In this document: piece after piece, positions 2,010 to 23,810 of the stretch
How the letters are laid out: the number at the start of each line of letters is the position of its first letter
Numbering within the stretch: the first letter of the stretch is position 1
DNA from: a virus
DNA: 23,810 nucleotides
IMG/VR virus record: IMGVR_UViG_3300004154_000048
Span: 1 to 23,810 of that record
Strand: one strand, 5' to 3'
The notes under the pieces: model-generated
Seen by the model: only the letters and a program-made list of their open reading frames with translations
Databases searched by the model: none
What the model was told of the DNA's origin: nothing
Program-made: the position numbers and the translations under genes

Positions 2010-2061
2010 GCTACACCTCCGCTAATGAGACTTATCAGTACTCTACCCACGCTCTTCACCG

Positions 2062-2418
2062 CTAACCCTTCACAAACAACTGCAACGCCCGCGCCGCTCC
2101 CTGGTTCTCAGCCGCGCCCGTGCCCGTATTCACGCTCACGAGCTTCATGTACCGTACCCCCATCACCTCGGTCGGCAGCTTGTACCATCCCGCCTCGGCT
2201 GTCAGCACCCCGCTGATCTTCACCAAAGCCCCTGTCGTATCTCGCACCCAGTCGTACGTTCCGCCCAGATTGGGGCTCATCTTGAACGCCACATTCGCCG
2301 CCGTCCACGCTTCTGGGATGCGCACCAAACCGCACGCCGGGATATACTCCTCCAGATTCACGGCGTTGCTCTCCGCCGCGCCGTTTGCAATCGTCAAATT
2401 GACCAATGCCTCTTCCAT
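2062..2418 (-). CDS. Small phage structural protein downstream of capsid
   Basis: 118 residues from ATG 2418 with an AGGAG ribosome binding site immediately after a strong hairpin. The sequence (ANVAFKMSPNLGGTYDWV, then GALVKISGVLTAEAGWYKLP, then MGVRYMKLVSVNTG) has the strand-turn-strand look of small beta-sandwich proteins often encoded just after HK97-type capsid genes. By position it may be a capsid decoration or head-completion protein. No catalytic motif or membrane segment is visible. The family assignment is inference from context and composition. Confidence 0.65.
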   Translation of the reverse strand: MEEALVNLTIANGAAESNAVNLEEYIPACGLVRIPEAWTAANVAFKMSPNLGGTYDWVRDTTGALVKISGVLTAEAGWYKLPTEVMGVRYMKLVSVNTGTGAAENQGAARALQLFVKG

Positions 2419-2433
2419 ACCCTGCTCCTTTTT

Positions 2434-2459
2434 GGGGAGGGCAGTTTCCCGCCCTCCCC
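2434..2459 (-). other. Strong intergenic hairpin after the capsid gene
   Basis: A perfect 9-bp stem (GGGGAGGGC/GCCCTCCCC) with an 8-nt loop lies 20 bp past the capsid stop. In the reading direction it is followed by AAAAAGGAGC, which supplies the next gene's Shine-Dalgarno instead of a U-run. It probably acts as an attenuator or RNA-processing/stability element that separates high capsid expression from downstream genes. Confidence 0.5.
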
Positions 2460-2479
2460 TCGAACTCGAAAACCAAAAC

Positions 2480-3988: not shown

Positions 3989-4949
3989 TTTGACCTCCTA
4001 CGGTCTGCAAACGATTCAAGATATTGGCAAGCACGGCCCCGCGCTCTGCGTCGTCGTCCTCGGGCTCTTCCTCGTCTTTAGCCTGCTCCTCCTCGGGCGC
4101 TTCTTCGGCTTCATCAGCCTCGATCTCCTTCTGCGCCCGCTGGATCACGCCATCGATCAGGGTCAGCGCCTGGCGTAGGTCGTCCATGTTGCGCCGCGAG
4201 AGCACCGCTCCCGAACGCTGTTCGACCTCCACCGGGTAAAACGCCTCTTCCCCTTCCAGGAATAGCCCGCGGATCTCACCGGCGCTCAGCGCGGCCAGCT
4301 CGTCGTTGGGTACGAACTCCGGCGCGGTTTTCCCCATCCGCCGGTATTTCGGCAGCAGTGCGCGGTAGCGTTTCTCACGGTCTTCATCGTCATCAGATCC
4401 AGGCAGGTACAAACGAGCCATCTCGCTCGCTAACTCCCGCCACGGATCCTCGGTTGAAGTGTCCGCATCTTTCGCCTCGATCATCTCCCGCAGCACCTGG
4501 TACTGCCGCTGCATCAACGCGTCCGGGTCGCCCGGCACCGGCACCGCCGCAATCTCCAGCAGTTCCCAGTCCGTCACGTCCCGACCGTTCATGTCCAAAC
4601 TTGTCCAGTTCACGCTCACCGCATGCAGGAATCCCTCGCGGTATTTCCGCTCCACCTGCCGCGCAAACTCATCTCCCTGGTCGAAGGTGATGTCCGCGTC
4701 CAGGCGCTCTCCGCTCGGATCCGCGATCACCTCGGCCCGCCCGATCGGCAGCCGGTTGCCCATCATGTCGTGCGCCCACGTCACCACCGGGTTGCGCCGG
4801 TAGTTATCCAGACGCACCCCGCCGACCACCAGGTTGAGGCCGTCCCGCTTGACCCCTTCCCGTGAAATCACAAACCGGATCGGCGTGCCCGCCGCGCTCT
4901 CTGCCGCCCCGTCGGCGGCTCGTTCACAATACGCTCTCAAATTTGGCAT
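3981..4949 (-). CDS. Prohead (capsid maturation) protease, HK97 type
   Basis: 322 residues. ATG 4949 is chosen because a GAGGAGGAG ribosome binding site precedes it and it lies 1 bp from the portal stop; the same frame extends upstream to 5054 only by overlapping the portal's C-terminal coding region. The N-terminal half matches HK97-family (U35) prohead proteases: GVRLDNYRRNPVVTWAHD with probable catalytic His60, PIGRAEV, then FLHAVSVNW with probable Ser112, then WELLEIAAVPVPGDPDA. The acidic C-terminal tail (EADEAEEAPEEEQAKDEEE region) may be a scaffold-binding segment. It cleaves capsid and scaffold during head maturation. It is translationally coupled to the capsid gene by an 8-nt overlap. 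Confidence 0.88.
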   Translation of the reverse strand: MPNLRAYCERAADGAAESAAGTPIRFVISREGVKRDGLNLVVGGVRLDNYRRNPVVTWAHDMMGNRLPIGRAEVIADPSGERLDADITFDQGDEFARQVERKYREGFLHAVSVNWTSLDMNGRDVTDWELLEIAAVPVPGDPDALMQRQYQVLREMIEAKDADTSTEDPWRELASEMARLYLPGSDDDEDREKRYRALLPKYRRMGKTAPEFVPNDELAALSAGEIRGLFLEGEEAFYPVEVEQRSGAVLSRRNMDDLRQALTLIDGVIQRAQKEIEADEAEEAPEEEQAKDEEEPEDDDAERGAVLANILNRLQTVGGQND

Positions 4950-4950
4950 C

Positions 4951-7119
4951 CTACTCCTCCTCGTCTTCCACCACCGGCTGCATCGTGCACCGGCAGTTGA
5001 TGTCTTCTTCAGCCGCGCCCAGTTGCCCAGGCCCCGGCCCGCGTCCCGATCCAACCTCGAAATCCTCGTCCATGTCTATCGGCGCGTTCTGGTAGCGCCT
5101 GTGCGCTTCCACGTGGCTGTCCCGTGCCCGGTCGTCCAATTCCGCCAGCCACGTCTTGCGAATCTTCAAGCCCGTCTGCTTCCAGGCCTCCAGCCGCCCG
5201 CCGTTCATCGCCCCGGTCACTTCCGTCCTGGCAATCGCCTCACTCGAGCTTTGGATCCGGTCACCCATCACCGCTTCCACCCGCGCTTGCAATTTCACCA
5301 GCCCCTCGCCCCCTTCGATGCCCTCGCTCAGGCTCTTCTGCAAGGTCTTCCAGGTCGTCTCGTTCACTTCCTTGGCAAACCGCTGCGCCCGCCGCTCGAT
5401 GAACCGTGCCGCCCCTGCCGCGCTCACGTCGAAGACCAGGTTCAGCGTTCCCATCTCGATGTACTCTTCCTCGCCCGTTTCCTGCACCAGGTCGCGTAGC
5501 TTGGGCCGGATCCGCACCCTGAACCGCTTGATCCAGTCCGCCAGGTTGAACAGGTCGCCCAGGTCCGCCCGCTGGCCGGTCGATTGGATCGACCGTTCCG
5601 CCTTTTCGAGCTTACTCAGCACGCTCTCCTTCTGGCTGCGCATCAGCTCGGCCACTGCCTCGCCAATCACCCGCTCCCACCGGCTCGCCCGCCGGTCAAA
5701 CTTCTTCCACGCCCGCTCATGCTCAGCGCTCCGGTACTCGACCCCCTGGACCGCCCTCACAGATCGCATCGACCGCGGCTCTTTTCCTTCCTCTTCCTCT
5801 GGGCTAACGGCTGACGGCTGAGAGCTGACAGCTTCTTCCTCTTCCTCTGAGCTGATAGCTGACGGCTGATGGCTGACGGCTTCCTCCAACGCTTCGACGG
5901 GCACTGCCGTGCCCGGCGCCCACCACGTATCCCCCCACGGCAGCGGCTTCTTGCCCTCTTCCTCCCGCCATTCGTTGATCAACATCGCCCCACGGTCGAT
6001 CTGATTCATCGCTCGTGTCCAGCGATCCGTCTTTGCCTCTTGCAGATCAGCAACCTCACTGTCGTCAAACTCGACCAGGTCGGCCTCGCCCCCAAACATG
6101 GGCACCAGCTGCTCGGTTATTTCTCCGGCAATGAATCGCGCCTCTGGCAGCACCGCGTGGGTCCAGGCCGCCCGCATAGCCGCGGGGAAATTCTCATAAG
6201 TCCGTTTCCCGCCCGCCAGGTCCTGCGGCCACTTGTAAGCCCGGCAGATCTCCTCCAGCGACAACTGGATGCCCTGGATAAACTCAGCGTCATGTGGGCT
6301 AATTCCCAGCGCCTTCGTCTCTACCTCGAAGCGAAACACGCCCCACCGGTGCGCCTTGTCCACGCCCTTGAACCGCTGGTCCAGCAATGCCTCGATCTCC
6401 CCGGCCTGCTGCTCGGTCAGTTGCGTGTTCTGCTTTGGGATGACCAGCCCGCCCGTCTGCAACCCGTTGCGGAACAGGTTGCGGTTCGAGCGCCACGCCT
6501 CCCCGGCATAGTCCGCTGCGATCCTCGATGCCGCCAGCGGCGAAAGCCCGTCGTACTCATCCATCGGGTTCGGATAGCGGAACCAGATCACCTCGCTCGG
6601 CAGGTAACCGATCGGCGTTCCCCCGGTCATCGGCGTGTAAGCAAACCCCTTAATGTAATTCACCGGGTCAGGGTACACCACCACCCGATCAGGCCGCCCC
6701 CACCAGATCTCCCGCGGTGTCTGCGTCCCCGACGGCCCCCGCTCCAGGAACCAGAAGGCCTTGCCCCACAGGCACAGGCTCAGTTCCGTCATCGAGATCA
6801 ATCGGTTCATCGTCCAGTGCGGGTTCACCTTCGTCAGAAGCTGCACCAGGTTCCCCTGGGTCACCTCTTCCCGCTTTCCGTTGCGCAACTTCATCGCCCG
6901 CTGCGGCAGGCTTGAAAGCAAATCTGCCCGCCCCGTCGCGCACGCATACACCCCGTTCGACTTGGCGATGTACTCCCCGTACTCCTCTGGCGCGAATTGG
7001 CTGTCCGGCCCACCCACGCCGTACGCTTGCATCGTCGCATCCACCACGCCCGGCCCCAGCACAAACGACCGCAGCGATTGGCGCACCCGTTCCCGGATTC
7101 CCGTCGTCCAGCGCGCCAT
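4951..7119 (-). CDS. Portal protein fused to a MuF-type head morphogenesis domain
   Basis: 722 residues. Residues about 40-410 are an HK97-type portal (SNGVYACATGRADLLSSLP, MTELSLCLWGKAFWFLER, EVIWFRYPNPMDEYDGLSPL, FRNGLQTGGLVIP), which forms the dodecameric ring for DNA entry. Residues 413-445 are a Glu-rich linker with a tandem 16-residue repeat. Residues about 615-715 match phage Mu gpF-like minor head proteins: IARTEV at 629-634, DDRARDSHVEAH at 662-673 and INCRC at 707-711. The start ATG overlaps the TerL stop by one base (TAATG), which implies translational coupling. The two domains are usually separate neighbouring genes, so the fusion is notable. The linker repeat belongs to a family dispersed in this element. 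Confidence 0.9.
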   Translation of the reverse strand: MARWTTGIRERVRQSLRSFVLGPGVVDATMQAYGVGGPDSQFAPEEYGEYIAKSNGVYACATGRADLLSSLPQRAMKLRNGKREEVTQGNLVQLLTKVNPHWTMNRLISMTELSLCLWGKAFWFLERGPSGTQTPREIWWGRPDRVVVYPDPVNYIKGFAYTPMTGGTPIGYLPSEVIWFRYPNPMDEYDGLSPLAASRIAADYAGEAWRSNRNLFRNGLQTGGLVIPKQNTQLTEQQAGEIEALLDQRFKGVDKAHRWGVFRFEVETKALGISPHDAEFIQGIQLSLEEICRAYKWPQDLAGGKRTYENFPAAMRAAWTHAVLPEARFIAGEITEQLVPMFGGEADLVEFDDSEVADLQEAKTDRWTRAMNQIDRGAMLINEWREEEGKKPLPWGDTWWAPGTAVPVEALEEAVSHQPSAISSEEEEEAVSSQPSAVSPEEEEGKEPRSMRSVRAVQGVEYRSAEHERAWKKFDRRASRWERVIGEAVAELMRSQKESVLSKLEKAERSIQSTGQRADLGDLFNLADWIKRFRVRIRPKLRDLVQETGEEEYIEMGTLNLVFDVSAAGAARFIERRAQRFAKEVNETTWKTLQKSLSEGIEGGEGLVKLQARVEAVMGDRIQSSSEAIARTEVTGAMNGGRLEAWKQTGLKIRKTWLAELDDRARDSHVEAHRRYQNAPIDMDEDFEVGSGRGPGPGQLGAAEEDINCRCTMQPVVEDEEE
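5791..5886. repeat. Tandem 48-bp repeat in portal linker ('AVSxQPSAxS' family)
   Basis: Two near-identical 48-bp units (starting 5791 and 5839) share GCTGACGGCTGA at the same position. The period is exactly 16 codons, so the portal frame is kept and the protein gains AVSSQPSAVSPEEEE and AVSHQPSAISSEEEEE. A third related copy lies at 14006-14048. The composition (short GCTGA-like subrepeats) is that of known dispersed bacterial repeats which insert in coding and non-coding DNA. Confidence 0.75.
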
Positions 7120-10196: not shown

Positions 10197-10225
10197 CGCC
10201 CGGCCTCCACATCAGAGACCGGGCG
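10197..10225. other. Hairpin upstream of holin-like gene
   Basis: An 11-bp stem (CGCCCGGCCTC with GAGACCGGGCG, one mismatch) and 7-nt loop lie just upstream of the holin-like gene's ribosome binding site. A second hairpin is next to it at 10242-10263. Neither is followed by a T-run in the gene direction. Confidence 0.45.
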
Positions 10226-10241
10226 CTCACCCCGTTACCTT

Positions 10242-10263
10242 GCCCAGGGCCACGCCCCTGGGC
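10242..10263. other. Perfect 8-bp hairpin in lysis/packaging leader
   Basis: GCCCAGGG (10242-10249) and CCCTGGGC (10256-10263) form a perfect stem with a 6-nt loop. It is one of several structured elements in the 315-bp gap between the HNH gene and the holin-like gene, possibly part of a leader RNA or packaging site. Confidence 0.4.
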
Positions 10264-10275
10264 TGCAAATCAATA

Positions 10276-10302
10276 TTCAGTCATTGAATTTCAATAACTG
10301 AA
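10276..10302. promoter_or_regulatory. 27-bp near-perfect palindrome, candidate operator
   Basis: TTCAGTCATTGAA and TTCAATAACTGAA form 13-bp arms around one central base, with one mismatch. Its AT-rich composition contrasts with the GC-rich surroundings, and it lies upstream of the lysis/packaging genes. The near-zero spacer argues for a dimer-bound DNA site more than an RNA hairpin. No regulator gene that would bind it can be identified here. Confidence 0.45.
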
Positions 10303-10345
10303 TTTTAAAACATTCTTAAACCACTGTCAACGAATCAACAAATAA

Positions 10346-10374
10346 GGTCCGGCAACCCGCCGGGCCTCTTTTTT
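10346..10374. terminator. Intrinsic, probably bidirectional terminator
   Basis: GGTCCGGC/GCCGGGCC (8 pairs including one G-U) closes a 5-nt AACCC loop and is followed on the plus strand by TCTTTTTT. On the minus strand the same stem is followed by TTATTTGTT, a weaker U-rich tract, which would end transcripts coming from the HNH/zinc-protein block before the lysis/packaging genes. No plus-strand gene reads into it, so the minus-strand role is the likely one. Confidence 0.6.
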
Positions 10375-10380
10375 CTTCTC

Positions 10381-10469
10381 TGCCCCCTCGCCCCGCCGCT
10401 TCGGCGCACCCGTAGGGGTGTCGGGAGAGGGTGGGGAAGCACTGGCCTTGCCAGTGTGAGGGTAAGCCT
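10381..10469. repeat. Dispersed repeat (copy 2), downstream of HNH gene
   Basis: TGCCCCCTCGCCCC, then a GCCGC-TTC-GGCGC mini-hairpin, then GGGAGAGGGTGGGG and GTGAGGGTAAGCCT. The same blocks in the same order occur at 10791-10838, on the other side of the HNH gene and in the same orientation. Copy 2 holds two internal insertions relative to copy 3. Confidence 0.7.
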
Positions 10470-10477
10470 CGAAAACA

Positions 10478-10777
10478 CTAGACTATTCTATGCACCCACC
10501 GATCCCGCCTGTGCTGTAAATGCAAATCCTGGTCATACCGCAGGTGGCACCGCTGGCACCAGTGCCGCAAATTCTCCATCGCGTTGTTCTCCGTGTCGTG
10601 ATCCAAATGCGCCACCGTCAGCACCACCCGGCTCCCCGTCACCGGGTGCGCCTTCCCATTCTCCGCCCGGCACTCCGGGTAAAACGGGCTCCCCTCGCAT
10701 CGATCCCCGCTCCTCGCCCGCACCATCTCCCGGATCTCCGCCCAATTCGCCGGATACTTCTTATAGTCGATCGGCAT
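10478..10777 (-). CDS. HNH-family endonuclease
   Basis: 99 residues from ATG 10777; the frame is open further upstream only through a dispersed repeat. A Cys at DRCEGSPFYPEC pairs with a downstream CQRCH to form the zinc site, and the core TVAHLDHDTENNAMENLRHWCQRCH has the His-Asn-His arrangement of small HNH nucleases. Such proteins near terminase genes often assist terminase in cos/pac cutting in HK97-like phages; others are homing-type nucleases. It is flanked by direct repeats (10381-10469 and 10791-10838), so it may have been acquired as a cassette. The ribosome binding site (GAAGGG) is weak. Confidence 0.8.
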   Translation of the reverse strand: MPIDYKKYPANWAEIREMVRARSGDRCEGSPFYPECRAENGKAHPVTGSRVVLTVAHLDHDTENNAMENLRHWCQRCHLRYDQDLHLQHRRDRWVHRIV

Positions 10778-10955
10778 CTTGCCCTTCTTTCTGCCCCCTC
10801 GCCCTCTTAGGGAGAGGGTGGGGGTGAGGGTAAGCCTGTGGATCCACATCAGCTTTCCCCGCCAACCACCCCAACACCCCCAGCACAAACCCCGCCCCCA
10901 ACACCCAGCACACCCCCACCCCGCACATCACCCCCATCAAAAACTGCCCGTTCAC
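10761..10955 (-). CDS. Small membrane protein (C-terminus encoded by repeat)
   Basis: 64 residues from GTG 10955, which overlaps the stop of the ASCH-like gene as GTGA and has GAGGGG close upstream. Residues 3-31 form a hydrophobic helix or hairpin (FLMGVMCGVGVCWVLGAGFVLGVLGWLAG). The tail from about residue 42 (AYPHPHPLPKRARGQKEG) is translated from the dispersed repeat at 10791-10838 and runs into the HNH start, so the original stop was probably lost when the repeat arrived. Function unknown. The GTG start and short length leave doubt that it is expressed. Confidence 0.45.
   Translation of the reverse strand: MNGQFLMGVMCGVGVCWVLGAGFVLGVLGWLAGKADVDPQAYPHPHPLPKRARGQKEGQDADRL
10791..10838. 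repeat. Dispersed repeat (copy 3), upstream of HNH gene
   Basis: CTGCCCCCTCGCCC, then GGGAGAGGGTGGGG and GTGAGGGTAAGCCT. In one frame it translates as LTLTPTLSLRGRGG, a peptide signature of a repeat common across many bacterial genomes. It lies between the small membrane protein and the HNH gene. Confidence 0.7.
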
Positions 10956-11662
10956 CCCTCTACCCTCTTGAACTCAATCACCCACACCCACGGGTTCACA
11001 TCCCACCCAAACCCGCGTTTGGCGTTGATCTCATTCCACAACCGGTGGAACTCCACCACCGCGTCATACTCCCGATCAACCTTGTCTGGATCTGCGTCAG
11101 GCCCTGGCCGCCACACCCCCTCAGCCAGCGCGTCCGCGTAGGAAATATCCTGCACCCGCTCCACCCGCACGTTAGTGGCCTCCAGCGTGATCCTGCTCGC
11201 CCAGCGAGGCATGTAGATAGATGGTCGCCATTTCGCGGTGCCAGAAAAACTTTCAGCTACAATTGGCGCCTCATTCGCTTTCCACCAGATGTGATCCCTA
11301 TTTCCGCAATGCACGTCGAAGCAATTTTGATCATCATGAGCCCACGTCTCCCGCACCCACAGCCAGTCACTTACAACGTATTTTTGCCGGGTGCCATAGA
11401 TAGTTGATACCGTTCCATTGTCGTGGCGCAGATCAAATAAATAATGGCTAGGCGTCTTACGAACAAAGATTTTCTCCATCGAATCTCGGTATATGTATTG
11501 CAGAGACTCCGGCCACATCACCTGCCTAGTTTGAATCTTCCTTCCATCCAGGATTGCTCTAACCATCTCGCCAGAAAAAATAATTGGCAGATCCGTCCTG
11601 TTGCCCCTCGCCAATATATCCTGCATCATCTCATTTGAAAGCATAATCCGTTGCTCTTTCAT
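10952..11662 (-). CDS. ASCH-like phage protein of unknown function
   Basis: 236 residues from ATG 11662, supported by GAGGAG upstream and a 4-nt ATGA overlap with the preceding zinc-ribbon gene. The order of motifs matches a phage family related to ASCH-domain proteins: LPIIFSGEMVRAILDGRKIQTRQV, then WLWVRETWAHDD, then KWRPSIYMPRWASRITLEAT, VQDISYADALAEG, and the end WNEINAKRGFGWDVNPWVWV. ASCH folds resemble PUA domains and are thought to bind RNA or modified nucleotides, but the role of this phage branch is not established. Codons here are more AT-rich than in the head genes. Confidence 0.75.
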   Translation of the reverse strand: MKEQRIMLSNEMMQDILARGNRTDLPIIFSGEMVRAILDGRKIQTRQVMWPESLQYIYRDSMEKIFVRKTPSHYLFDLRHDNGTVSTIYGTRQKYVVSDWLWVRETWAHDDQNCFDVHCGNRDHIWWKANEAPIVAESFSGTAKWRPSIYMPRWASRITLEATNVRVERVQDISYADALAEGVWRPGPDADPDKVDREYDAVVEFHRLWNEINAKRGFGWDVNPWVWVIEFKRVEG

Positions 11663-11850
11663 TTCTTTCTCCTCGTCTTCACAATCACATTCCAAAAAAA
11701 CCTTACTACCTCCATCGGCTTTGCCGTTCCATAGAGGCATGTATCTCGGCTGTCACATTGTGGGCATTTAGGCATGTTAGGCATGATGTGCCTCTCTGGT
11801 AACTTGAACGTCGCCCCGCATCTATCGCATTCGTAATAAAAATAATCCAT
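11659..11850 (-). CDS. Small zinc-ribbon protein
   Basis: 63 residues from ATG 11850 with GGAG upstream. Two CxxC knuckles are visible, YECDRCGATF at residues 6-16 and PKCPQCDSRD near 27-36, a rubredoxin-like zinc ribbon. A hydrophobic/basic C-terminus (VVRFFWNVIVKTRRKK) follows. It stands in a tandem of cysteine-rich genes with 1-4-nt junctions. A nucleic-acid or protein adaptor role is likely but unproven. Confidence 0.7.
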   Translation of the reverse strand: MDYFYYECDRCGATFKLPERHIMPNMPKCPQCDSRDTCLYGTAKPMEVVRFFWNVIVKTRRKK

Positions 11851-11853
11851 AGC

Positions 11854-12183
11854 TCACTCCTCTCCTTCCCACCCACACTCCAAATAATCCCCGTTCTCCG
11901 GTACAAAATTTTTCAATGATCGAGCGACAAAATCTCGCATGTATTGATCAGTCTCCTTTTCCTCTGCCCCGCTTCCGTACGAGACATCTCTCAGCGCCCG
12001 GCAGTCCGCACAAATATCCTCAAGTAACCCCGGTTCCACTTCATCAACAGCGACCCACTTGCCACAGATCAAACAATTGAATCCGTTCAACCCGCATACA
12101 TTCTCAATATGAGTGCAGGCCTCGGAACCATCCATAAAACCTTTGCAGTCACACTCAAAACCACACCACGGACACTCGTGCAT
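11854..12183 (-). CDS. Cysteine-rich zinc-binding protein
   Basis: 109 residues from ATG 12183 behind GGAGG. Cysteines are arranged CPWC, CDC, then FNCLICGKW and ICADC (three or more probable zinc sites). The block LNGFNCLICGKWVAVDEVE...ICADCRALR is clearly related to LNAFNCLNCERWITGEEAA...YCDECTAKR in the next gene upstream, so the two genes share a duplicated ~40-residue module. The C-terminal half is acidic. No enzymatic motif is seen; a role in binding nucleic acid or a host protein is possible. Confidence 0.7.
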   Translation of the reverse strand: MHECPWCGFECDCKGFMDGSEACTHIENVCGLNGFNCLICGKWVAVDEVEPGLLEDICADCRALRDVSYGSGAEEKETDQYMRDFVARSLKNFVPENGDYLECGWEGEE

Positions 12184-12396
12184 TTAAAAACCTCCTTCTC
12201 TTTTCGCCGTGCACTCATCGCAATAACCATCCATGCGACGCGCCGCCTCTTCCCCGGTGATCCATCTTTCGCAATTCAGGCAGTTGAAAGCATTCAGATC
12301 AATCCCCTCGTTGCATAAGGGGCAGGGCGATTCTCCGTCATATCCCTCACGCACATACCCAGTTCCATTGCACAAATTACAATATTCGACTGACAT
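12184..12396 (-). CDS. Cysteine-rich zinc-binding protein with DnaJ-like knuckle
   Basis: 70 residues. ATG 12396 is preferred because AAGGAG lies just upstream; an upstream TTG in frame has no site. The N-terminus YCNLCNGTGYV resembles one CxxCxGxG knuckle of DnaJ, paired with PCPLCNEG. The C-terminal module FNCLNCERW...YCDECTAKRE is paralogous to that of the downstream gene. The stop is directly adjacent to the next start, consistent with one operon. Confidence 0.7.
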   Translation of the reverse strand: MSVEYCNLCNGTGYVREGYDGESPCPLCNEGIDLNAFNCLNCERWITGEEAARRMDGYCDECTAKREGGF

Positions 12397-12452
12397 AACT
12401 ACTCCTTCCAATTCGTGAAATTCGTGGATAACTCATCTCCGTCCCTCTTCCC
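12397..12452 (-). other. Short leader of the zinc-protein operon
   Basis: The gap holds the ribosome binding site of the first zinc gene and a small tandem ATTCGTGAA/ATTCGTGGA motif of the kind found dispersed in bacterial genomes. I see no convincing promoter. Confidence 0.3.
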
Positions 12453-12481
12453 CCAGGAAGGCCCCTTAGCGGCCCTCCTGG
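12453..12481. other. 11-bp hairpin next to the partition repeats
   Basis: CCAGGAAGGCC (12453-12463) pairs with GGCCCTCCTGG (12471-12481) with one G-U pair and a 7-nt loop. It starts right at the end of the repeat array, downstream of the RHH gene. There is no U-run on either side, so it may be an RNA-end structure or part of the DNA site itself. Confidence 0.4.
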
Positions 12482-12483
12482 AG

Positions 12484-12573
12484 TCTCTAGCGCTTCCCTA
12501 TACGCTGGCGTAGCCTGTTTTCTCTACGCTTCCGTATACGCTTCTCTCTGCGCTTCCGTTTGCGCTGGCGTAG
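12484..12573. repeat. Three ~30-bp iterons, candidate centromere (parS/parC-like)
   Basis: Three related units start at 12484, 12521 and 12543, each with TCTCT followed by CGCTTCC and then TATACGCT or TTTGCGCT; the two outer units end in GGCGTAG. The array lies 4 bp downstream of the RHH gene that follows ParA. Short direct repeats beside a parA-plus-RHH operon are the normal form of a partition centromere. The site is inferred from position and repetition alone. Confidence 0.6.
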
Positions 12574-12576
12574 ATT

Positions 12577-12954
12577 TCACTTTTCTTCACTTTCCGGCAA
12601 CACCAGCACACTGTCATAAAACGGGCTGTGGCTGGGCCGCCTCGGCCACCGCTCCAGGTCCACCCCGGCCCGCATCGCCTGGATCAACATCGCTCCCGCC
12701 ACCGAGCTCACCGGCACGCTCTGCTCTTGCGCCAGTTCCCGCACCGCCTTGATCAGCCATTCCGGCAGGTCATAGCTGGCCTTCTTCCGCGCCCGGTCAG
12801 CCTCGATCTTCTTCCGCTGCCCCGGTGTCAGTCCCTTCGCTCGCCGCGTCCTGTCGGCATGCCGCAGCACCGGGTCGTCCTGCCCGAACACCGCGCTGCT
12901 CACCGCCTCGTCCGTTACCGCTTGCACTGGGTAGTTTTTCTTGATGGCCATCAT
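12577..12954 (-). CDS. Ribbon-helix-helix DNA-binding protein, probable ParA partner
   Basis: 125 residues from ATG 12954 (ATG 12951 also possible), 1 bp after the ParA stop. The segment ASYDLPEWLIKAVRELAQEQSVPVSSVAGAMLIQAM (about residues 63-98) has a strand followed by two helices, as in RHH/CopG-like DNA-binding domains that act as dimers. The basic N-terminal region (LTPGQRKKIEADRARKK) is flexible and could stimulate ParA ATPase, as N-termini of centromere-binding proteins do. It would bind the iterons at 12484-12573 and autoregulate or segregate the element. Family and role are inferred from motif plus context. Confidence 0.7.
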   Translation of the reverse strand: MMAIKKNYPVQAVTDEAVSSAVFGQDDPVLRHADRTRRAKGLTPGQRKKIEADRARKKASYDLPEWLIKAVRELAQEQSVPVSSVAGAMLIQAMRAGVDLERWPRRPSHSPFYDSVLVLPESEEK

Positions 12955-12955
12955 C

Positions 12956-13762
12956 TCACCTCACCACCCGCTCCACAATCTCAGCCAGGTGCAGATAGCC
13001 CCCCACCCGCTTCCGGCTGTTGGTCGCCTTGATTCCATTCGCCGCATAGCCGACCGCTGCCGCGCTGTTCGGCGCATACTCCCAGATCGTCACCCCCCGG
13101 CTGGCCGCTTCCCGCACCTTCGTGTCCTCTGGAATAGGAGGCAGCACCAGATCAGGTCCCCCCACCAGCTCAGCCAGTCGGCGCAGGTTGCTGTCCGTCT
13201 CGTTCGTCTTCCGCTCATAGATCGTCGGCAGCACCCCGATCACCGTCGGCGCCGTCACGCTCGGGAAGGCTCCCAACCCACGCACCGTCTTCAGGATCTC
13301 CGCCGTCCCGTCCAGCCCCAGATAGTCCAGCACCACCGGCACCAGCACGAAATCAGCCGCCGCCAGCGCGCTGATGTGCAGCGTATCCGAGCCCGGCGCC
13401 AGGTCCAAAAAGACCAGGTCATACTTCCCTTCCGCGGCCATCAACGCCTCGCCCACCACCCGCTCGCGCTGCGGCATATCTACCAGCCACACCCCGATCT
13501 TGGCCGTCTTCTTATCGCTCGTCACGATGTCCAGCCCCATCCGTGCCTCGATCACCACCTCGCTCAATGGGTCCTCGCCCACCAGCCAGCGAAACAGCCC
13601 GCTGCCCTTCGGCTTGCCCAGCAGCTTCGCCACGTGCCCCTGCTGGTCCACATCCACCACCAGCACCTTGTACCCCTGCCCAGCGAACCAGCTCGCCAGC
13701 GCGATCGTCGTCGTCGTCTTCGCCATCCCGCCCTTCTGATTGGCCACTGCAATGATCTTCAT
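12956..13762 (-). CDS. parA: ParA-family partition ATPase
   Basis: 268 residues with a deviant Walker A motif KGGMAKTTTT at 10-19 (signature Lys10 and Lys15), VVDVDQQGHV (A' motif) and FLDLAPGSD (Walker B). Size without an N-terminal DNA-binding extension fits small type Ib ParA proteins, which pair with RHH partners. It moves or positions DNA on the nucleoid and implies an extrachromosomal phase or unstable copy number. It overlaps the upstream small gene by ATGA and is followed 1 bp later by the RHH gene. A role in FtsK/envelope positioning is a less likely alternative. Confidence 0.9.
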   Translation of the reverse strand: MKIIAVANQKGGMAKTTTTIALASWFAGQGYKVLVVDVDQQGHVAKLLGKPKGSGLFRWLVGEDPLSEVVIEARMGLDIVTSDKKTAKIGVWLVDMPQRERVVGEALMAAEGKYDLVFLDLAPGSDTLHISALAAADFVLVPVVLDYLGLDGTAEILKTVRGLGAFPSVTAPTVIGVLPTIYERKTNETDSNLRRLAELVGGPDLVLPPIPEDTKVREAASRGVTIWEYAPNSAAAVGYAANGIKATNSRKRVGGYLHLAEIVERVVR

Positions 13763-13956
13763 TTCGTTTCTCCGTTCTTCTTGATGATCTTCAAATCCAC
13801 CAGCTTCACCGACCGCCGCCGGGCATACACCCCGTCTTCCCGCTCCACGTTCGGCCCGTACTCCACCACCGCGTCCGCCTCATAGGCAAACACCACCACC
13901 CCCGTCATCCCATCCTTCATCACCACCCGGTCCCCCGCCTCAATCTTTTCTTCCAT
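13759..13956 (-). CDS. Small beta-rich protein (KOW/SH3-like), unknown
   Basis: 65 residues from ATG 13956 with GAGG upstream. EAGDRVVMKDGMTGVVVFAY and AVVEYGPNVER form a beta-strand pattern like KOW or small SH3-like barrels that bind nucleic acid or protein. It overlaps ParA by 4 nt (ATGA), so it belongs to the ParA-RHH operon. Its place before ParA is unusual; it could be a regulator of partition. The 81-bp gap to FtsK upstream contains a dispersed repeat. Confidence 0.6.
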   Translation of the reverse strand: MEEKIEAGDRVVMKDGMTGVVVFAYEADAVVEYGPNVEREDGVYARRRSVKLVDLKIIKKNGETK

Positions 13957-14005
13957 CGTTTCCTCTCTTATTCGTGTCTATTTTCTTCATTCGCGGATCG
14001 TCTTT

Positions 14006-14048
14006 TCTTCTCTGGCTAACAGCTGACGGCTGATAGCCTACAGCTTCT
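14006..14048. repeat. Dispersed 'AVSxQPSAxS' repeat, copy at the ftsK 3' end
   Basis: CTGGCTAACAGCTGACGGCTG plus the following TGATAGCCTACAGCTTC matches each 48-bp unit in the portal linker (5791-5886) over about 36 bp. The ftsK stop codon lies inside it. It probably moved into the 3' end of the gene. Confidence 0.65.
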
Positions 14049-15300
14049 CCCCTTGAGGCCCTTGAGGCTCCTTGAGGGCTTGAGGAATCGCCGCCAAAAC
14101 CCTGGGGGCCAGTTGCCGCGCGTTCCCCACGCCTGCCACCAGCCACCCCTTCGACGACCACTCGTTCAACATCATCCGCGCGCGCCACTCGCTCCACCCG
14201 ATCTCCTTCAGCTTGGGGATGCTCATCACCCCACCCCACTCTGCTGCTGCTCGTTCTGCCAGGTGCAGTTCTCGCCCCACCGGCACGTCGCTGGCCGCCG
14301 TCTCCAGCGCGGGCAAAAACGCCTGCGCCTCCACCAGCCGTGCCCCCCAGCTCATCAACAGCCGCCCCTTCGTCTTCGGCAGCTTCTCCGCTCCGCTCCG
14401 TCCCAGCACCACCATGCTGTCCGAGACAGCCGGGACCGGGAAACAAATCCGAGTCGCCAGGTTGGTTTTGATCAACCCGCCCACCTCCTGCACGCTCGTC
14501 CGCTGGGTAGCCAGCACCGGCAGGATTCCATACGCCCGCCCGGTTGCCACCACCTGCGCTAGCCGCCCTTGCAGCTCAGCCGGTACCAGGGCCGCCTCGT
14601 CGATGATCAGCACCACCCACAGCATTTCCGTTATCCCAGCAGGCCCAAGCTGCGCGATATATTCCATAATCCCCCGCGCCCCGGCTTCCTTGAATTGCTC
14701 TGCCCGCTCCTCGATCGTCTTCTCCAGGTAGCTCAGCCCCGTGTCCAGATCATCCATGGCCAGCACGTGCGGCTCGTTCTCATACCGCCCGAACTCGTTG
14801 CCGCTCTTTCCATCCCACAGCACCAGCTCGCACTCTTTGCCATGCAGCAATGCCTGAATCCAGCCGTGCAGCAGCATCGTCTTGCCAAATCCGCGCGTTC
14901 CGCCCACCAGCACGCTGTCCGCATCCACCAGCGAGATCCACAGTGGCCCCTTGCGTGTCATGCCGATCGGAACGTCCATCGACCTCGCCTGGGCGCTCAT
15001 ATCCAGCGCTTGGCTCTCCAGCCGGTGCGCCAATCGCTCCACCCTCGTCCCCACCTGGTAGAAGATCCCTACACTGTTCGTCCGCACCACCGATGCGCCG
15101 CCCAACCGTGTCGCCAGGTCGTGCCGGAACTGGTCGCTCAGCACCGACCGCATGTTGCGCACATTGTGCGGGTTCACGCTCATCACCACCCGCTCGTCCA
15201 GCTCCCAGGCCCAAAACCAGGGCAGGCTCGCATCGTGCACATGCGGCTCCAACAGGCTTGCCATCGCCGCCACAATCTCATCCACGCTTCTAGCGCCCAT
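14038..15300 (-). CDS. FtsK/SpoIIIE-type DNA translocase ATPase
   Basis: 420 residues from ATG 15300 behind GGAGG. The motor has Walker A GGTRGFGKT at 133-141, Walker B LWVVLIIDEAA at 227-237 and a LATQRT sensor-like motif near 263. C-terminal residues about 340-400 look like a winged helix (SIPKLKEIGWSEWRARMMLNEWSSKG). No transmembrane helix is visible, so membrane attachment may be through the membrane proteins encoded just upstream. FtsK-like motors pump double-stranded DNA; related single motors in actinomycete elements (Tra) transfer DNA between cells. The short tail (KEPQGPQGEKL) derives from repeats. Distinct from TerL, which is present too. Confidence 0.85.
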   Translation of the reverse strand: MGARSVDEIVAAMASLLEPHVHDASLPWFWAWELDERVVMSVNPHNVRNMRSVLSDQFRHDLATRLGGASVVRTNSVGIFYQVGTRVERLAHRLESQALDMSAQARSMDVPIGMTRKGPLWISLVDADSVLVGGTRGFGKTMLLHGWIQALLHGKECELVLWDGKSGNEFGRYENEPHVLAMDDLDTGLSYLEKTIEERAEQFKEAGARGIMEYIAQLGPAGITEMLWVVLIIDEAALVPAELQGRLAQVVATGRAYGILPVLATQRTSVQEVGGLIKTNLATRICFPVPAVSDSMVVLGRSGAEKLPKTKGRLLMSWGARLVEAQAFLPALETAASDVPVGRELHLAERAAAEWGGVMSIPKLKEIGWSEWRARMMLNEWSSKGWLVAGVGNARQLAPRVLAAIPQALKEPQGPQGEKL

Positions 15301-16330
15301 CCTGCGCCTCCTTCCAATCGGCCTCCAGCACCTCGATGATCTCTTGCGTCACCGGCGGCGTCTGTCCCGACCGATACACCATATACCGCGGCCCTGCCTT
15401 CGGCGCTGCCTCTCGAAACTCTCGCCCGCTGCTGTTCCCGTTCGTCTTTTGCTGCGGGATGAACAGCGACCCGCGGTGTTGCAGATCCACCATCTGGTCT
15501 CTGGCTGTGGTTCGCTCCTGGGTCGCCCCATCCGCCAGCATCGGCTTGCTCGGGTCCAGCATCGGCCCGGTGTTGCGATCCAGATCCACGTAAGCACCTT
15601 GCGGCGTGATAATGATCGGCGCGTCCCCTCTCGCGTCTCTCTGGATCACGCGCAGCACCGGCACAGCCACCCGCACCAACACTACCGCGATCAGCACCAG
15701 GATCAGCGTCGCCAGGATCCCGATCACAAACGGCATCACCGCGGTCATATCGTTCACGATTCGCTGCCGTTCGGTGTTCATCCGCAAAATCTCGGCCTGC
15801 TCTGTGCTGATCATCCCCACGTACACCGCCGTGGCCGTCGCATCGCTGGCGTCCGCCGTGGCCGTTCCCGACCATGACCGCTCGGCCCGCAAGGCCAGCG
15901 CGGCGTCGCCCGTGGCCGTCCACTGCGCCAACATCAACGCCATTGCGTCCGTCGTGGCCTGTGCCCCCTGGGTCGCCCGGGCCGCGCCTTCGGTCGCTTG
16001 CATCGCTGCCTGGGTCAGTCCTGCCACAAACGCCTGGCCGGTGGCCATTCGTGCCCCTTCTGCCTGGGTCGCCTGGAACCGCGCCGCCTCAGCCGTAGCC
16101 TCGGCAATCATATTCGTCGCCCGCTGCCGTTCCCGCTCCAGGTCCAGCACTGCCCCGGTGGCCGTCGCGTCGATCACCTGCCTCGTCGAGGCAAAAGCCC
16201 ACTCTGTGGCGTTCGGAGTCCCGCTCGGTGCCAGGGCCGTGCCCACGCTCTGCGCCATCGGCGCAACGTCGCAGGCCGCGAATAACACCAGCGCAGCCAC
16301 AATCGTGAGAACAGCCGTTGCCCGTTTCAT
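15290..16330 (-). CDS. Ala/Thr-rich lipoprotein with C-terminal membrane helix
   Basis: 346 residues from ATG 16330, touching the upstream stop as TGATG. A signal sequence with a lipobox-like FAAC (Cys20) starts the protein. Residues 30-190 are a long Ala/Thr/Gln-rich helical region (ATAEAARFQATQAEGARMATGQ, ATEGAARATQGAQATTD) typical of extended stalks. A second membrane helix spans about 197-220 (AVMPFVIGILATLILVLIAVVLVRV), leaving about 120 residues in the cytoplasm (DLDRNTGPMLDPSKPMLAD). It overlaps the FtsK gene by 11 nt. A scaffold linking envelope and motor is a plausible inference. Whether it is lipidated is unproven because Phe, not Leu, precedes Ala-Ala-Cys. Confidence 0.75.
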   Translation of the reverse strand: MKRATAVLTIVAALVLFAACDVAPMAQSVGTALAPSGTPNATEWAFASTRQVIDATATGAVLDLERERQRATNMIAEATAEAARFQATQAEGARMATGQAFVAGLTQAAMQATEGAARATQGAQATTDAMALMLAQWTATGDAALALRAERSWSGTATADASDATATAVYVGMISTEQAEILRMNTERQRIVNDMTAVMPFVIGILATLILVLIAVVLVRVAVPVLRVIQRDARGDAPIIITPQGAYVDLDRNTGPMLDPSKPMLADGATQERTTARDQMVDLQHRGSLFIPQQKTNGNSSGREFREAAPKAGPRYMVYRSGQTPPVTQEIIEVLEADWKEAQDGR

Positions 16331-16836
16331 CACCACCCCCACGGGTTCGTGCTCTGATCGACCGGCGCGTTTTGTTCCACCAGCATCGGCGCATCTTGCC
16401 CGGCCCGGCGCGGCTGATTCTGCCGCATCTGCTCTTGCATCATCTGCATGGCCATCATTCCCATCATCATCTGCAACGGGTCGCCCGAGCCCATCAACTG
16501 CGGCATCTGCTGCCGTTGGAAATTCGCGTTCGGTCCCGGCGCCCACTTGCCAAATGCGCCCTGACCAATCCCGGCCTGCTGCACCATCCGCTGGACCTTG
16601 ATCAGCCGGTACACCAGGTATCCCACCACGATCATGCCCAGCGCCAGCATGACCACCAGCGCCACCACCAGCACCGAGTTCGACCTGGCCGTCTCCAGTT
16701 GCGCCGCGCTGGCAATCTGCGCGGCCCTGGCCGCCTCGATCGCTGCCTGCGCCTGATTCGCGGTCGCCGCGCTGCTGGCAATCCAGCCCACCACCAGCGC
16801 CAGCAAAATAATCACCGCCAAAATGATCAGTACCAT
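16330..16836 (-). CDS. Two-helix membrane protein with Met/Gln-rich tail
   Basis: 168 residues from ATG 16836 with AAGGTAGG upstream. Helices lie at about 2-20 (VLIILAVIILLALVVGWIA) and 54-80 (VLVVALVVMLALGMIVVGYLVY), joined by an Ala-rich helical loop (QAQAAIEAARAAQIASAAQ). The C-terminal ~90 residues are low-complexity, with MMMGMMAMQMMQEQM and QNQPRR, and look disordered. It is coupled to the downstream lipoprotein by a 1-nt overlap. Function unknown; part of the FtsK operon. Confidence 0.7.
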   Translation of the reverse strand: MVLIILAVIILLALVVGWIASSAATANQAQAAIEAARAAQIASAAQLETARSNSVLVVALVVMLALGMIVVGYLVYRLIKVQRMVQQAGIGQGAFGKWAPGPNANFQRQQMPQLMGSGDPLQMMMGMMAMQMMQEQMRQNQPRRAGQDAPMLVEQNAPVDQSTNPWGW

Positions 16837-16842
16837 CTCAAC

Positions 16843-17130
16843 CTACCTTTCGTACATCCGAAAGAACTTGCAAATCGCCTTGTAATGCCGCTCCGTCAGC
16901 GCGCGCATCCCAAATGCCATACCGGCCCCAATCAGCGCGCCAATCGCTCCCCCCACCCATTGAGCGATCACTGCTCCAACCAGCCCGCCGCCAATCGCCA
17001 GCAGTGCCGCCATCCCGATGGTCGCTACCCAGGCTAAAACAGAAAAATTCGCTTCCGCTTTCTTCTCCTGGGCATCCGCCTCAATGAAGGCAATATGACC
17101 TGCATCGGTGTTCCAATCCCATTCGTTCAC
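16843..17130 (-). CDS. Two-helix membrane protein
   Basis: 95 residues. GTG 17130 is chosen because it overlaps the upstream stop as GTGA and follows GAGGAG. After an acidic N-terminus (NEWDWNTDAGHIAFIEADAQEKK), hydrophobic segments at about 32-50 (VLAWVATIGMAALLAIGGG) and 53-77 (VGAVIAQWVGGAIGALIGAGMAFGM) are Gly-rich and could pack or form oligomers. A basic C-terminus (ALTERHYKAICKFFRMYER) is likely cytoplasmic. No family recognised; its position in the FtsK operon suggests an envelope component. Confidence 0.7.
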   Translation of the reverse strand: MNEWDWNTDAGHIAFIEADAQEKKAEANFSVLAWVATIGMAALLAIGGGLVGAVIAQWVGGAIGALIGAGMAFGMRALTERHYKAICKFFRMYER

Positions 17131-17366
17131 TCCGTCCTCCTCGGCATCGCCGCCAGATCCACCCAAATGTCTCGCCCTGGCACTCTGCCCGCGTTCACCT
17201 GGCAGATCCCGCCCACCATGCGCGTCTCAAAATCGCCATACCCCGCCGCTTCCGCGGCCTGGGCGCATTCGGTCTCTGCCCCATTCCAACCATCGCCCCC
17301 ACCAATGGGGCAGGTCAGTTGGATAAAAATCATCACCGCCACGACCAGCAAAATTTTCTTGTTCAT
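17127..17366 (-). CDS. Small secreted protein
   Basis: 79 residues from ATG 17366 behind AGGAGG. A short signal peptide (NKKILLVVAVMIFIQL) is followed by a Gly/Cys region (CPIGGGDGWNGAETECAQAAEAAGYGDF) and a third Cys (GGICQVNAG). It ends with an ATGA-type overlap to the next gene and begins with one to the previous. The Cys residues may form disulfides outside the cell. No family recognised. Confidence 0.65.
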   Translation of the reverse strand: MNKKILLVVAVMIFIQLTCPIGGGDGWNGAETECAQAAEAAGYGDFETRMVGGICQVNAGRVPGRDIWVDLAAMPRRTE

Positions 17367-17629
17367 CGTTCCTCCTGATACTTCCTCATCAACCGCCGCA
17401 CGCTTTCAGGCCCTGGCACCCACGTCCGCATCTGCCCGCAAATCGAGCAGCGCACGTCCGCCACATGCCCCTCCACCGCGGCCATCACGTCCACGCTCTC
17501 CGGTAATCCTTCCAGGCCATAATCTACCGCCTGGCGGTACAGCAGCAACAGCCGGATCCCGCTTCCGTTCCTCACCACCTGCCCCATCGTGTGCCCGTTG
17601 GGGCACTTCCACTCAGCCACAGGTTTCAT
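17363..17629 (-). CDS. Zinc-ribbon-like small protein
   Basis: 88 residues from ATG 17629 behind GGAGGG. WKCPNGHTMG at the N-terminus and RCSICGQMRTW near the C-terminus can supply a C..H + CxxC zinc site. Between them lies a helical segment (SGIRLLLLYRQAVDYGLEGLPESV). It overlaps both neighbours by 4 nt. It is the only obvious cytoplasmic zinc protein of the FtsK operon and may be an adaptor. Confidence 0.65.
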   Translation of the reverse strand: MKPVAEWKCPNGHTMGQVVRNGSGIRLLLLYRQAVDYGLEGLPESVDVMAAVEGHVADVRCSICGQMRTWVPGPESVRRLMRKYQEER

Positions 17630-18120
17630 TTACCCTCCATGACCACTAAATATCCACGCGGCACCCAGTCCGCTACAGCCAGTTTCAGCATGATGGTCTT
17701 CCCCAGTACATCCAGCTCGAGCGGCAGCGGCTGGCCATCCGCGTCCCGCGGGGCCGCTTCCGGCACTGACCTGGTCACGAGCTGCTCGGCGTCTTTGTCC
17801 ATCTCGATGTAGTGCCGCGTAGCCGCGTCGATGGCCGCCTGCCGGAAGGACGTGCCCTTCCCGATCCACCATGCCACTGCCCGCCGCTTGTCCTCTTTCA
17901 GCTTCAGCTCTACCACCTCTCGGATGTTCCACCACATTCGCAGGTGATACACCCCCAGCGGGTCTTCTTTGTACTGGTGGATCCGCAGCGTATCCAGGCA
18001 GGTGCTCGGCGTCTGTGCCGTCCACTTGTCCCAGGATGGCGCCTGCTCCATGCTCACCACATGCAGCTCGCGCACCCATCCCTGGCTGATCTCATCCGTC
18101 AGCACAACGTCATTCGCCAT
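17626..18120 (-). CDS. Conserved-looking protein of unknown function in FtsK operon
   Basis: 164 residues from ATG 18120; GAGGTGG precedes it and it overlaps the upstream lipoprotein by 11 nt. Charged and Trp-rich segments (GWVRELHVVSMEQAPSWDKW, LRMWWNIREVVELKLKED, AVAWWIGKGTSFRQAAIDAA) and an Asp/Leu-rich C-terminus (LPLELDVLGKTIMLKLAV) suggest a soluble alpha/beta protein. No known motif is visible. Operon position links it to the membrane/FtsK set. Confidence 0.65.
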   Translation of the reverse strand: MANDVVLTDEISQGWVRELHVVSMEQAPSWDKWTAQTPSTCLDTLRIHQYKEDPLGVYHLRMWWNIREVVELKLKEDKRRAVAWWIGKGTSFRQAAIDAATRHYIEMDKDAEQLVTRSVPEAAPRDADGQPLPLELDVLGKTIMLKLAVADWVPRGYLVVMEGK

Positions 18121-18478
18121 ATACCACCTCGCACTTCGCCCACCCCACCCGCCAGTACCCAGGCCGCTCAACCGGCTCAGTCCGGTATTCCACCTGTGCC
18201 CACCCATCTACGCAATTTCCGGTCTTGACCAGGTCGCCCGCCACCGTCATGCCCTGGCTCTTGTAGACCCGCTGCCCGCGCGCATCCAGCCGGTAGGTGA
18301 AGACCTCGATACTCTTTTCCGGCGCGCTCACCTGCGTCGTCGGCAAAACTGTGGCCGTGGGCGCCAGTGTGGCCATAGGAGAGGCCGTAGGCATCACCAC
18401 TTCCGCCTGCTCTTGCATCGCCATGCAGCCGGTGACGATAATCACCACCATCAACAAAATCGCTACAGTTGTTTTCAT
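18110..18478 (-). CDS. Lipoprotein with Thr/Pro linker and SH3b-like domain
   Basis: 122 residues from ATG 18478 behind GAGGAGT. Signal sequence with lipobox VTGC at Cys18, a Pro/Thr linker (PTASPMATLAPTATVLPTT) of the kind frequent in Chloroflexota exported proteins, then a compact domain with strands EVFTYRLDARGQRVY, MTVAGDLVKT, GWAQVEYRTE and VGWAKCEVVYGE, reminiscent of bacterial SH3 domains that bind cell wall. It is the first gene of the eight-gene FtsK operon. An anchor to peptidoglycan or envelope is an inference. Confidence 0.7.
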   Translation of the reverse strand: MKTTVAILLMVVIIVTGCMAMQEQAEVVMPTASPMATLAPTATVLPTTQVSAPEKSIEVFTYRLDARGQRVYKSQGMTVAGDLVKTGNCVDGWAQVEYRTEPVERPGYWRVGWAKCEVVYGE

Positions 18479-18524: not shown

Positions 18525-18551
18525 TGTGAACTTCCGTTTCGGAAGTTCACA
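18525..18551. repeat. Perfect 27-bp palindrome with iteron arms
   Basis: TGTGAACTTCCG and CGGAAGTTCACA are exact 12-bp inverted arms around TTT. Each arm contains the GTGAACTT iteron. It lies about 47 bp upstream of the lipoprotein start and could also act as an operator for the FtsK operon. Confidence 0.75.
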
Positions 18552-18729
18552 CAAGTACACAAGAAGTACACACACCTCTATAGTTCCCCATGGCAAATGA
18601 GCGCCTGACCCCCCTATAAGTTAACCAAAGTACAAGAAGTACACATTCAGAGCGGTCGTAGGAGCATCGAAGGCTCGATTTCTGCCACTTTTGACCGTTT
18701 TTCAACCTTAAAAAAGGCAAAATCGTCTC

Positions 18730-18852
18730 TGTGAACTTGTGAACTTTGTGAATACTCATAGGGGGGGTGCCCATTTGCATTGCAAATCCGGCCCCCTTAC
18801 AAAAACAATTCAGGAGTAGCACATAGAAGTTCACAAAGTTCACAAGTTCACA
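18730..18852. repeat. Perfect 23-bp inverted repeat enclosing a hairpin
   Basis: 18730-18752 and 18830-18852 are exact reverse complements and each holds two direct GTGAACTT iterons. The 77-bp loop contains the 15-bp palindrome ATTTGCA-T-TGCAAAT (18773-18787) flanked by GGGGGGG on one side and CCCCC on the other, a longer potential cruciform. Confidence 0.8.
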
Positions 18853-23587: not shown

Positions 23588-23810
23588 CTATTTCCGCCGA
23601 AGTTTTCCCAACTCGCCCGCTTCCACAGCCTCGGCCAGGTCTTCCCGCCCGGCCTGCGTGTAACGCGCGGTCGTCTCAATTTTGCTGTGCCCCAGAATCA
23701 CCTGCGCCTCGGTCAGTGGCCGCGCCGCGTCGATCATGCTTTTCGCGCACGTGTGCCGCAGCGCGTGGCAGCTCAACCCTTCCATGCCCAACTGCCTCGC
23801 CAGCTCCTCC
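23588..23810 (-). CDS. Tyrosine recombinase/integrase, partial (C-terminal end)
   Basis: The frame enters from the right edge and gives 73 residues of the catalytic domain: HALRHTCAKSM supplies the H-x-x-R pair, ILGHSKIETTARYTQ supplies the second His and the nucleophilic Tyr. These are the C-terminal motifs of phage-type and Xer-type tyrosine recombinases; the first catalytic Arg and N-terminal DNA-binding domain lie outside the window. It most likely integrates and excises the element. No attachment site is visible because the flank is missing. Confidence 0.85.
   Translation of the reverse strand, partial: EELARQLGMEGLSCHALRHTCAKSMIDAARPLTEAQVILGHSKIETTARYTQAGREDLAEAVEAGELGKLRRK

Follow-up and report, generated by a model that had tools for sequence, protein, structure and literature searches.

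The 23,810-nucleotide stretch of viral DNA analyzed here (positions 1 to 23,810 of IMG/VR record IMGVR_UViG_3300004154_000048, called the window below) is part of the genome of a tailed and probably temperate phage, and it carries at 14038-18478 a run of eight closely packed genes, the last of which encodes an FtsK-type ATPase. By sequence comparison, this run splits into two genes of the phage backbone (sol2 and a zinc ribbon), small genes that are not conserved (lipo1, sec4 and tm5), and a conserved set, tm6-lipo7-FtsK (Table 1). The conserved part extends past the run into the genes for ParA and a ribbon-helix-helix (RHH)-like protein. The set appears to be transplantable, and to date it is known only from phages and further mobile DNA within one group of filamentous bacteria. 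We tentatively propose, at a little less than even confidence, that tm6-lipo7-FtsK is a mobile cassette for a membrane-tethered double-stranded DNA (dsDNA) translocase, with which temperate phages, plasmids and integrative elements in Chloroflexota of the Anaerolineae type would serve the inheritance of their own DNA. The label Anaerolineae for the hosts rests on locus L005, which belongs to an Anaerolinea metagenome-assembled genome (MAG).

The conserved tm6-lipo7-FtsK module

Of 396 genomes of the Anaerolinea class, 18 gave lipo7 homologues in a search with a profile of the lipo7-tail alignment, as did five further IMG/VR contigs of 28-58 kb. FtsK follows directly after lipo7 on the same strand in every locus with enough sequence (29/29), and in four loci (L141, L143, L145 and L153) the two are fused in one open reading frame (ORF), the lipo7 match coming first and the motor match second. 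These fused ORFs encode a signal peptide, the Ala/Thr region, a transmembrane (TM) segment and the motor, that of L143 being cut within the motor. FtsK relatives that align over nearly the full length were found in Chloroflexota, and the FtsK and lipo7 distance matrices correlate with a Mantel r of 0.485, a value as high as which was obtained in 0 of 5000 permutations. An iterated search seeded with the window protein alone located tm6 homologues upstream of lipo7 in 15 module loci. It should be mentioned that many of the module loci are short MAG contigs. No lipo7 was found in 296 genomes of the Prauserella phylum or in 97 genomes of the phylum of an Omnitrophota MAG, phyla in which there was no positive control.

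At least six tailed phages, with several unrelated types of large terminase (TerL), carry the module (the window, L169, L170, L171, G720:C436 and G748:C149). In L103, L104, L105, L107 and L135 it lies amid plasmid- or integrative-type genes, with no phage gene in the stretch read. As a separate observation, a related FtsK in L074 (G024:C567, 2-775) follows a different membrane protein, which has two hydrophobic segments, does not match lipo7 and may be another kind of anchor.

FtsK belongs to the FtsK/SpoIIIE motor superfamily, based on a motor domain that scores above the Pfam cut-off (42.5 bits versus 24), the Walker A (GGTRGFGKT; G134, G139, K140) and Walker B (VVLIIDEA; D234, E235) motifs, and the fold. 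The ATPase residues are conserved, with G134, G139, K140, D234 and E235 invariant in the relatives. The protein matches phrog_1358 with an E-value of 3.5e-44, and its best phmmer match in the PDB is TcpA (6o1w-6o1z, E 3e-15). It consists of an N-terminal alpha/beta region, a RecA-like motor and a C-terminal winged helix. For its structural model (mean predicted local distance difference test score, pLDDT, of 61.9), the FtsK motor and TcpA are the best Foldseek and VIA matches. The FtsK motor fold is matched with a Foldseek E-value of 4e-14 and, for 6t8o, a VIA Z score of 19.2 over 290 residues with a root-mean-square deviation of 7.9 Å, and the Z score against TcpA is 17.9. The C-terminal domain, modelled as a winged helix-turn-helix (wHTH) with pLDDT 80.7, could not be tied to the gamma domain with which chromosomal FtsK/SpoIIIE read KOPS sites, since it matches many wHTH folds equally well and FtsK_gamma (PF09397) is not reported by Pfam.

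A sequence-only reading of the run had described this ATPase as lacking a membrane helix of its own and had suggested that neighboring membrane proteins recruit it. The first point is correct, as the sole hydrophobic stretch, residues 215-233, forms the Walker B strand. The second is supported by the unbroken adjacency, the four fusions and the conserved cytoplasmic tail of lipo7. This protein has a lipoprotein signal with a lipobox, an Ala/Thr-rich external part, a TM segment at 201-219 and a tail with the motifs RDxRGDAP and TARDQxVDL. The tail is its best conserved part and the external part varies, and this combination fits a docking role. We infer that lipo7 is the membrane anchor of FtsK; the invariant gene order and the fusions associate the two proteins, and the contact residues are putative. 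The third member of the conserved operon, tm6, is a two-TM protein with a WxPGPNAxF/W motif and a C-terminal W-x-W. Neither lipo7 nor tm6 has a convincing family match in Pfam, PHROGs, NCBIfam or PADLOC, in agreement with the earlier remark that the content resembles no described system. The sole PHROGs match of the lipo7 ORF is weak (phrog_22087, E 0.0023, function unknown) and is read as low-complexity similarity.

Partition linkage and the proposed role

In 20 of 32 loci, a ParA gene or an actin-type (ALP/MreB-like) gene lies within ~6 kb of the module, and in many of them it comes right after FtsK on the same strand (examples were confirmed with Pfam). When applied to 66 loci of portal-family phages (798 kb), the same partition profiles gave 0 matches. 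Along the FtsK tree, the partition type switches between ParA and actin at least seven times, and the clustering of types is no better than with shuffled labels. L103 (ParA) and L104 (actin) even belong to one genome and have near-identical FtsKs. That one partition system has repeatedly taken the place of the other suggests an association of the motor with partition as such and not with one partner, and we therefore favor a role in the inheritance of episomal prophages or plasmids over transfer and over a role at the infection stage.

In the proposed mechanism, FtsK would be an ATP-driven dsDNA motor, as its family and fold indicate, presumably acting as a hexamer with a winged helix that may read DNA. 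The motor, itself without a membrane part, would be held at the membrane by the lipid anchor and single TM segment of lipo7 through the conserved cytoplasmic tail, and tm6, judged by synteny, may be a small accessory membrane subunit. The complex would work with the partition system (ParA or an actin-like protein, each with an RHH protein) that positions the episome, and the linkage suggests that the anchored motor could, at the division septum, move or clear the DNA of the episome in the way that FtsK/SpoIIIE handle chromosomes. The furthest-reaching form of this proposal is a new kind of episome-inheritance machine of filamentous Chloroflexota, in which the lipoprotein-anchored FtsK pump, together with interchangeable ParA or actin systems, would drive phage-plasmid DNA through the septum in a SpoIIIE-like manner; this form is possible, and we advance it with some doubt.

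Several points weigh against inheritance. The partition linkage could simply mark episome backbones, and linkage alone cannot decide the role of FtsK. TcpA and TraB, the nearest characterized relatives besides FtsK, are transfer proteins. No partition gene was found in 12 loci, which are mostly short contigs but also include L168, L170 and L171 of 10-18 kb. The partition hidden Markov models were trained partly on module neighbors; these profiles also found L134, L140, L144, L146, L147, L151, L169 and L172, all outside the training set. Finally, the FtsK model was built on six sequences only, with the mean pLDDT given above and a motor part that is low in places.

The main rival, which we consider rather unlikely, is cell-to-cell transfer, in which a TraB/TcpA-like translocase would pass dsDNA of the element through the septum or a contact zone to the neighbor in the filament, as in Streptomyces, without a relaxase or type IV secretion. 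After FtsK itself, TcpA, the coupling protein of pCW3 conjugation, is one of the best matches in both structure and sequence, and a C-terminal winged helix is predicted in the module's motor. Elements of the actinomycete integrative and conjugative element (AICE) type need one FtsK-like protein and no type IV secretion system (PMC3218068). A relaxase of family PF03432 was found on no module contig, in a search confined to this family and run on contigs that are often fragmentary; its absence is among the points for inheritance and also fits dsDNA transfer. A TraG/TraD-like gene adjoins one copy of the module (L104). On the other side, FtsK reaches 30.7 bits with the NCBIfam model plasmid_TraB (NF041214) against a cut-off of 800, the consistent neighbors are partition and not transfer genes, and packaged phages already own a transfer route. 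In addition, a search for clt-like 8-mer clusters gave none linked to the module: AGTTCAC, the one strong cluster, is present also in the related phage contig L065, which is without FtsK.

The presence of the module on at least six tailed phages could also point to the infection stage, where the anchored motor would act in phage DNA entry, in processing of the circular genome or in superinfection exclusion at the envelope, and not in the prophage. Phages of Gram-positive hosts commonly have FtsK-like genes (159 phage records match). We regard this as improbable, given the plasmid- and integrative-type contigs named above and the PADLOC search, which gives generic ATPase matches only. The sequence-only reading of a translocation or exclusion machine is divided: DNA translocation at the envelope is still the best reading, and exclusion is unsupported, the neighbors being partition, replication and integration genes. 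Besides partition genes, these neighbors include initiators with DnaA_N, integrases, primases and a resolvase.

It is noted that a DUF2637 membrane protein is encoded upstream of the module in L168 (4477-5466), L171 (2175-3125), L141 and L145. DUF2637 also lies beside the integrase of mycobacteriophage Kratark (gp34), and 408 Mycobacterium phage records match it. As a possible link to actinobacterial conjugation it was not used as evidence, because it is present in a relaxase locus without the module and is not beside FtsK in one mycobacteriophage and two actinobacterial plasmids. The relaxase locus, L173 (G566:C13, 12.4 kb), has relaxase, TraD-like ATPase, RHH-like and DUF2637 genes and no FtsK module, and is a separate mobilizable element of Chloroflexota.

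The window phage and its accessory block

Every gene of the window is on the minus strand: the integrase C-terminus, primase-helicase, the eight-gene run, ParA, HNH, holin-like, small and large terminase, portal, protease and major capsid protein (MCP). With tailed-phage structural genes (TerL, portal, head protease and MCP, the MCP match being weak) and a partition system together, the window has the gene content of a phage-plasmid, whose prophage may be an autonomous replicon. Prophage integration is also possible, because the fragmentary record ends in the integrase C-terminus (23588-23791). Single-protein scans of viral and genome collections gave no match with FtsK and likewise none with the primase; the phage family was reached by a portal alignment search. 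The closest relatives are L005, a prophage-like region, and the IMG/VR contig L065, which is 61%, 73% and 75% identical to the window in primase, TerL and MCP, respectively.

All eight ORFs of the run, as listed in the sequence-only reading, were confirmed. Six of the seven junctions overlap, by 11, 4, 4, 4, 1 and 11 nt, and tm5 and tm6 are separated by a 6-nt gap. The run had been taken as one dedicated operon and machine, and the tight junctions are consistent with this. In L065, however, the primase and two other small genes are followed by sol2 (47%) and the zinc ribbon (70%) and then directly by holin-like genes and the terminases, with tm6, lipo7, FtsK and ParA absent from the locus. Since both genes sit there between primase and lysis genes without FtsK, sol2 and the zinc ribbon are phage backbone. 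None of the five genes upstream of tm6 has a match in any module locus. A single eight-gene machine is thus very improbable; by the refuting condition named in the sequence-only reading, sol2 and the zinc ribbon occur apart from FtsK, and tm6-lipo7-FtsK apart from the other five genes. Within the module, lipo7 and FtsK stay paired in all 29 loci. The zinc-ribbon protein is 70% identical in L065 and L011 and 56% in L018, members of the same phage family with no FtsK in their available sequence. Its family is common to at least four phages of the group, as a backbone gene adjoining sol2.

The comparison to L065 thus delimits in the window an accessory block of about 7.1 kb (10211-17362), bounded by the zinc ribbon on one side and by a promoter-like region conserved in L065 on the other. 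This region, upstream of the holin-like gene (window ~10240-10340; L065 6320-6380), contains TTGACA, then ATTCARTTATTGAAATTCAATGAYTGAAT, an inverted-repeat operator candidate, and the block stops just short of it. The spot looks like a cargo hot spot, because L005 has other genes (369-6483), some resembling defense genes, upstream of the same holin-like gene. By inspection, those resembling defense genes are a 586-aa DUF262-like protein and a 1102-aa ORF where the window has the FtsK block.

Between primase and lipo1, the window has a cluster of AGTTCAC/GTGAACTT repeats (18525-18852). With up to one mismatch, TGTGAACTT has 14 matches in the window versus 2.8 expected, and L065 has a similar AGTTCAC cluster at the same place. 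The cluster is a candidate for origin iterons or operators of the phage family. A function as FtsK loading sites was rejected, since L065 has the repeats but no FtsK.

Table 1. Genes of the eight-gene run and of the adjoining partition region
Feature	Position	Strand	Remarks
lipo1	18110-18478	-	122 aa; small lipoprotein, lipobox VTGC; no homologue in L065 or module loci
sol2	17626-18120	-	164 aa; soluble; 47% homologue at same position in L065
Zinc ribbon	17363-17629	-	88 aa; CPxxH and CxxC; HTMGQVVRNGSGIR motif
sec4	17127-17366	-	79 aa; small secreted peptide, N-terminal hydrophobic stretch; in accessory block; no homologue in module loci
tm5	16843-17130	-	95 aa; GTG start; glycine-rich small membrane protein; in accessory block; no homologue in module loci
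tm6	16330-16836	-	168 aa; two hydrophobic segments
lipo7	15290-16330	-	346 aa; lipobox FAAC; second hydrophobic segment 201-219
FtsK	14038-15300	-	420 aa; Pfam FtsK_SpoIIIE (PF01580)
65-aa protein	13759-13956	-	between FtsK and ParA; no homologue found in module loci
ParA partition ATPase	12956-13762	-	AAA_31 E 1.3e-35; phrog_164 ParA E 3e-45
RHH-like DNA-binding protein, probable ParA partner	12577-12954	-	RHH by inspection; homologues beside ParA in L103 (8.6e-11) and L135 (8e-5)
Three imperfect ~21-nt repeats (GCGYAWASGGAAGCGYAGAGA-like)	12484-12570	-	just downstream of RHH gene; candidate centromere for ParA

Relation to known systems

The motor superfamily is already known; Pfam, NCBIfam, PHROGs and PADLOC have no family for the version in Chloroflexota elements, with its lipoprotein anchor and its link to partition. 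A literature search (FtsK with Chloroflexi phage-plasmids, DUF2637, Anaerolineae prophages) found no description of the module in the papers available. FtsK-like genes are also common in Gram-positive plasmids, and their role in phages is largely unexplained. With a defined, sometimes fused anchor and two unrelated, repeatedly swapped partition types, a phage FtsK of unknown function becomes a testable complex of three proteins, for which two clear predictions can be made: episome stability or transfer from cell to cell. The finding also points to a possible plasmid lifestyle of many Anaerolineae phages.

TcpA carries its own TM region and is part of a conjugation system. The TcpA of pCW3 shares the FtsK-like motor with the module, whose FtsK in contrast has no TM segment and on whose contigs, many of them fragments, no PF03432 relaxase was found. 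Like the FtsK/SpoIIIE chromosome translocases, the module has a RecA-like dsDNA motor with Walker A and B motifs, the alpha/beta motor fold of 6t8o and a predicted C-terminal winged helix. It differs from them in having no N-terminal multi-TM domain, the anchor being a separate or fused lipoprotein, in the size of the motor (~420-470 aa) and its location on mobile elements, and in the unreported FtsK_gamma. Streptomyces TraB, which binds clt repeats and moves dsDNA from cell to cell, and the Tra proteins of AICEs are likewise single FtsK-like dsDNA translocases on mobile elements for which a relaxase is not needed (PMC3218068), whereas the TraB model scores far below its cut-off here, and partition linkage and a lipoprotein anchor are not described for TraB/AICE. 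In type VII secretion, EccC/EssC have several ATPase domains in contrast to one motor domain here (45.7 bits versus a cut-off of 509). The Bacillus phages 268TH004 and Pascal resemble the window in having a short FtsK gene in a tailed phage, but there the next gene is Replic_Relax, found here on one module contig only (G712:C63), in an FtsK and replication-relaxation pair, in place of the lipoprotein.

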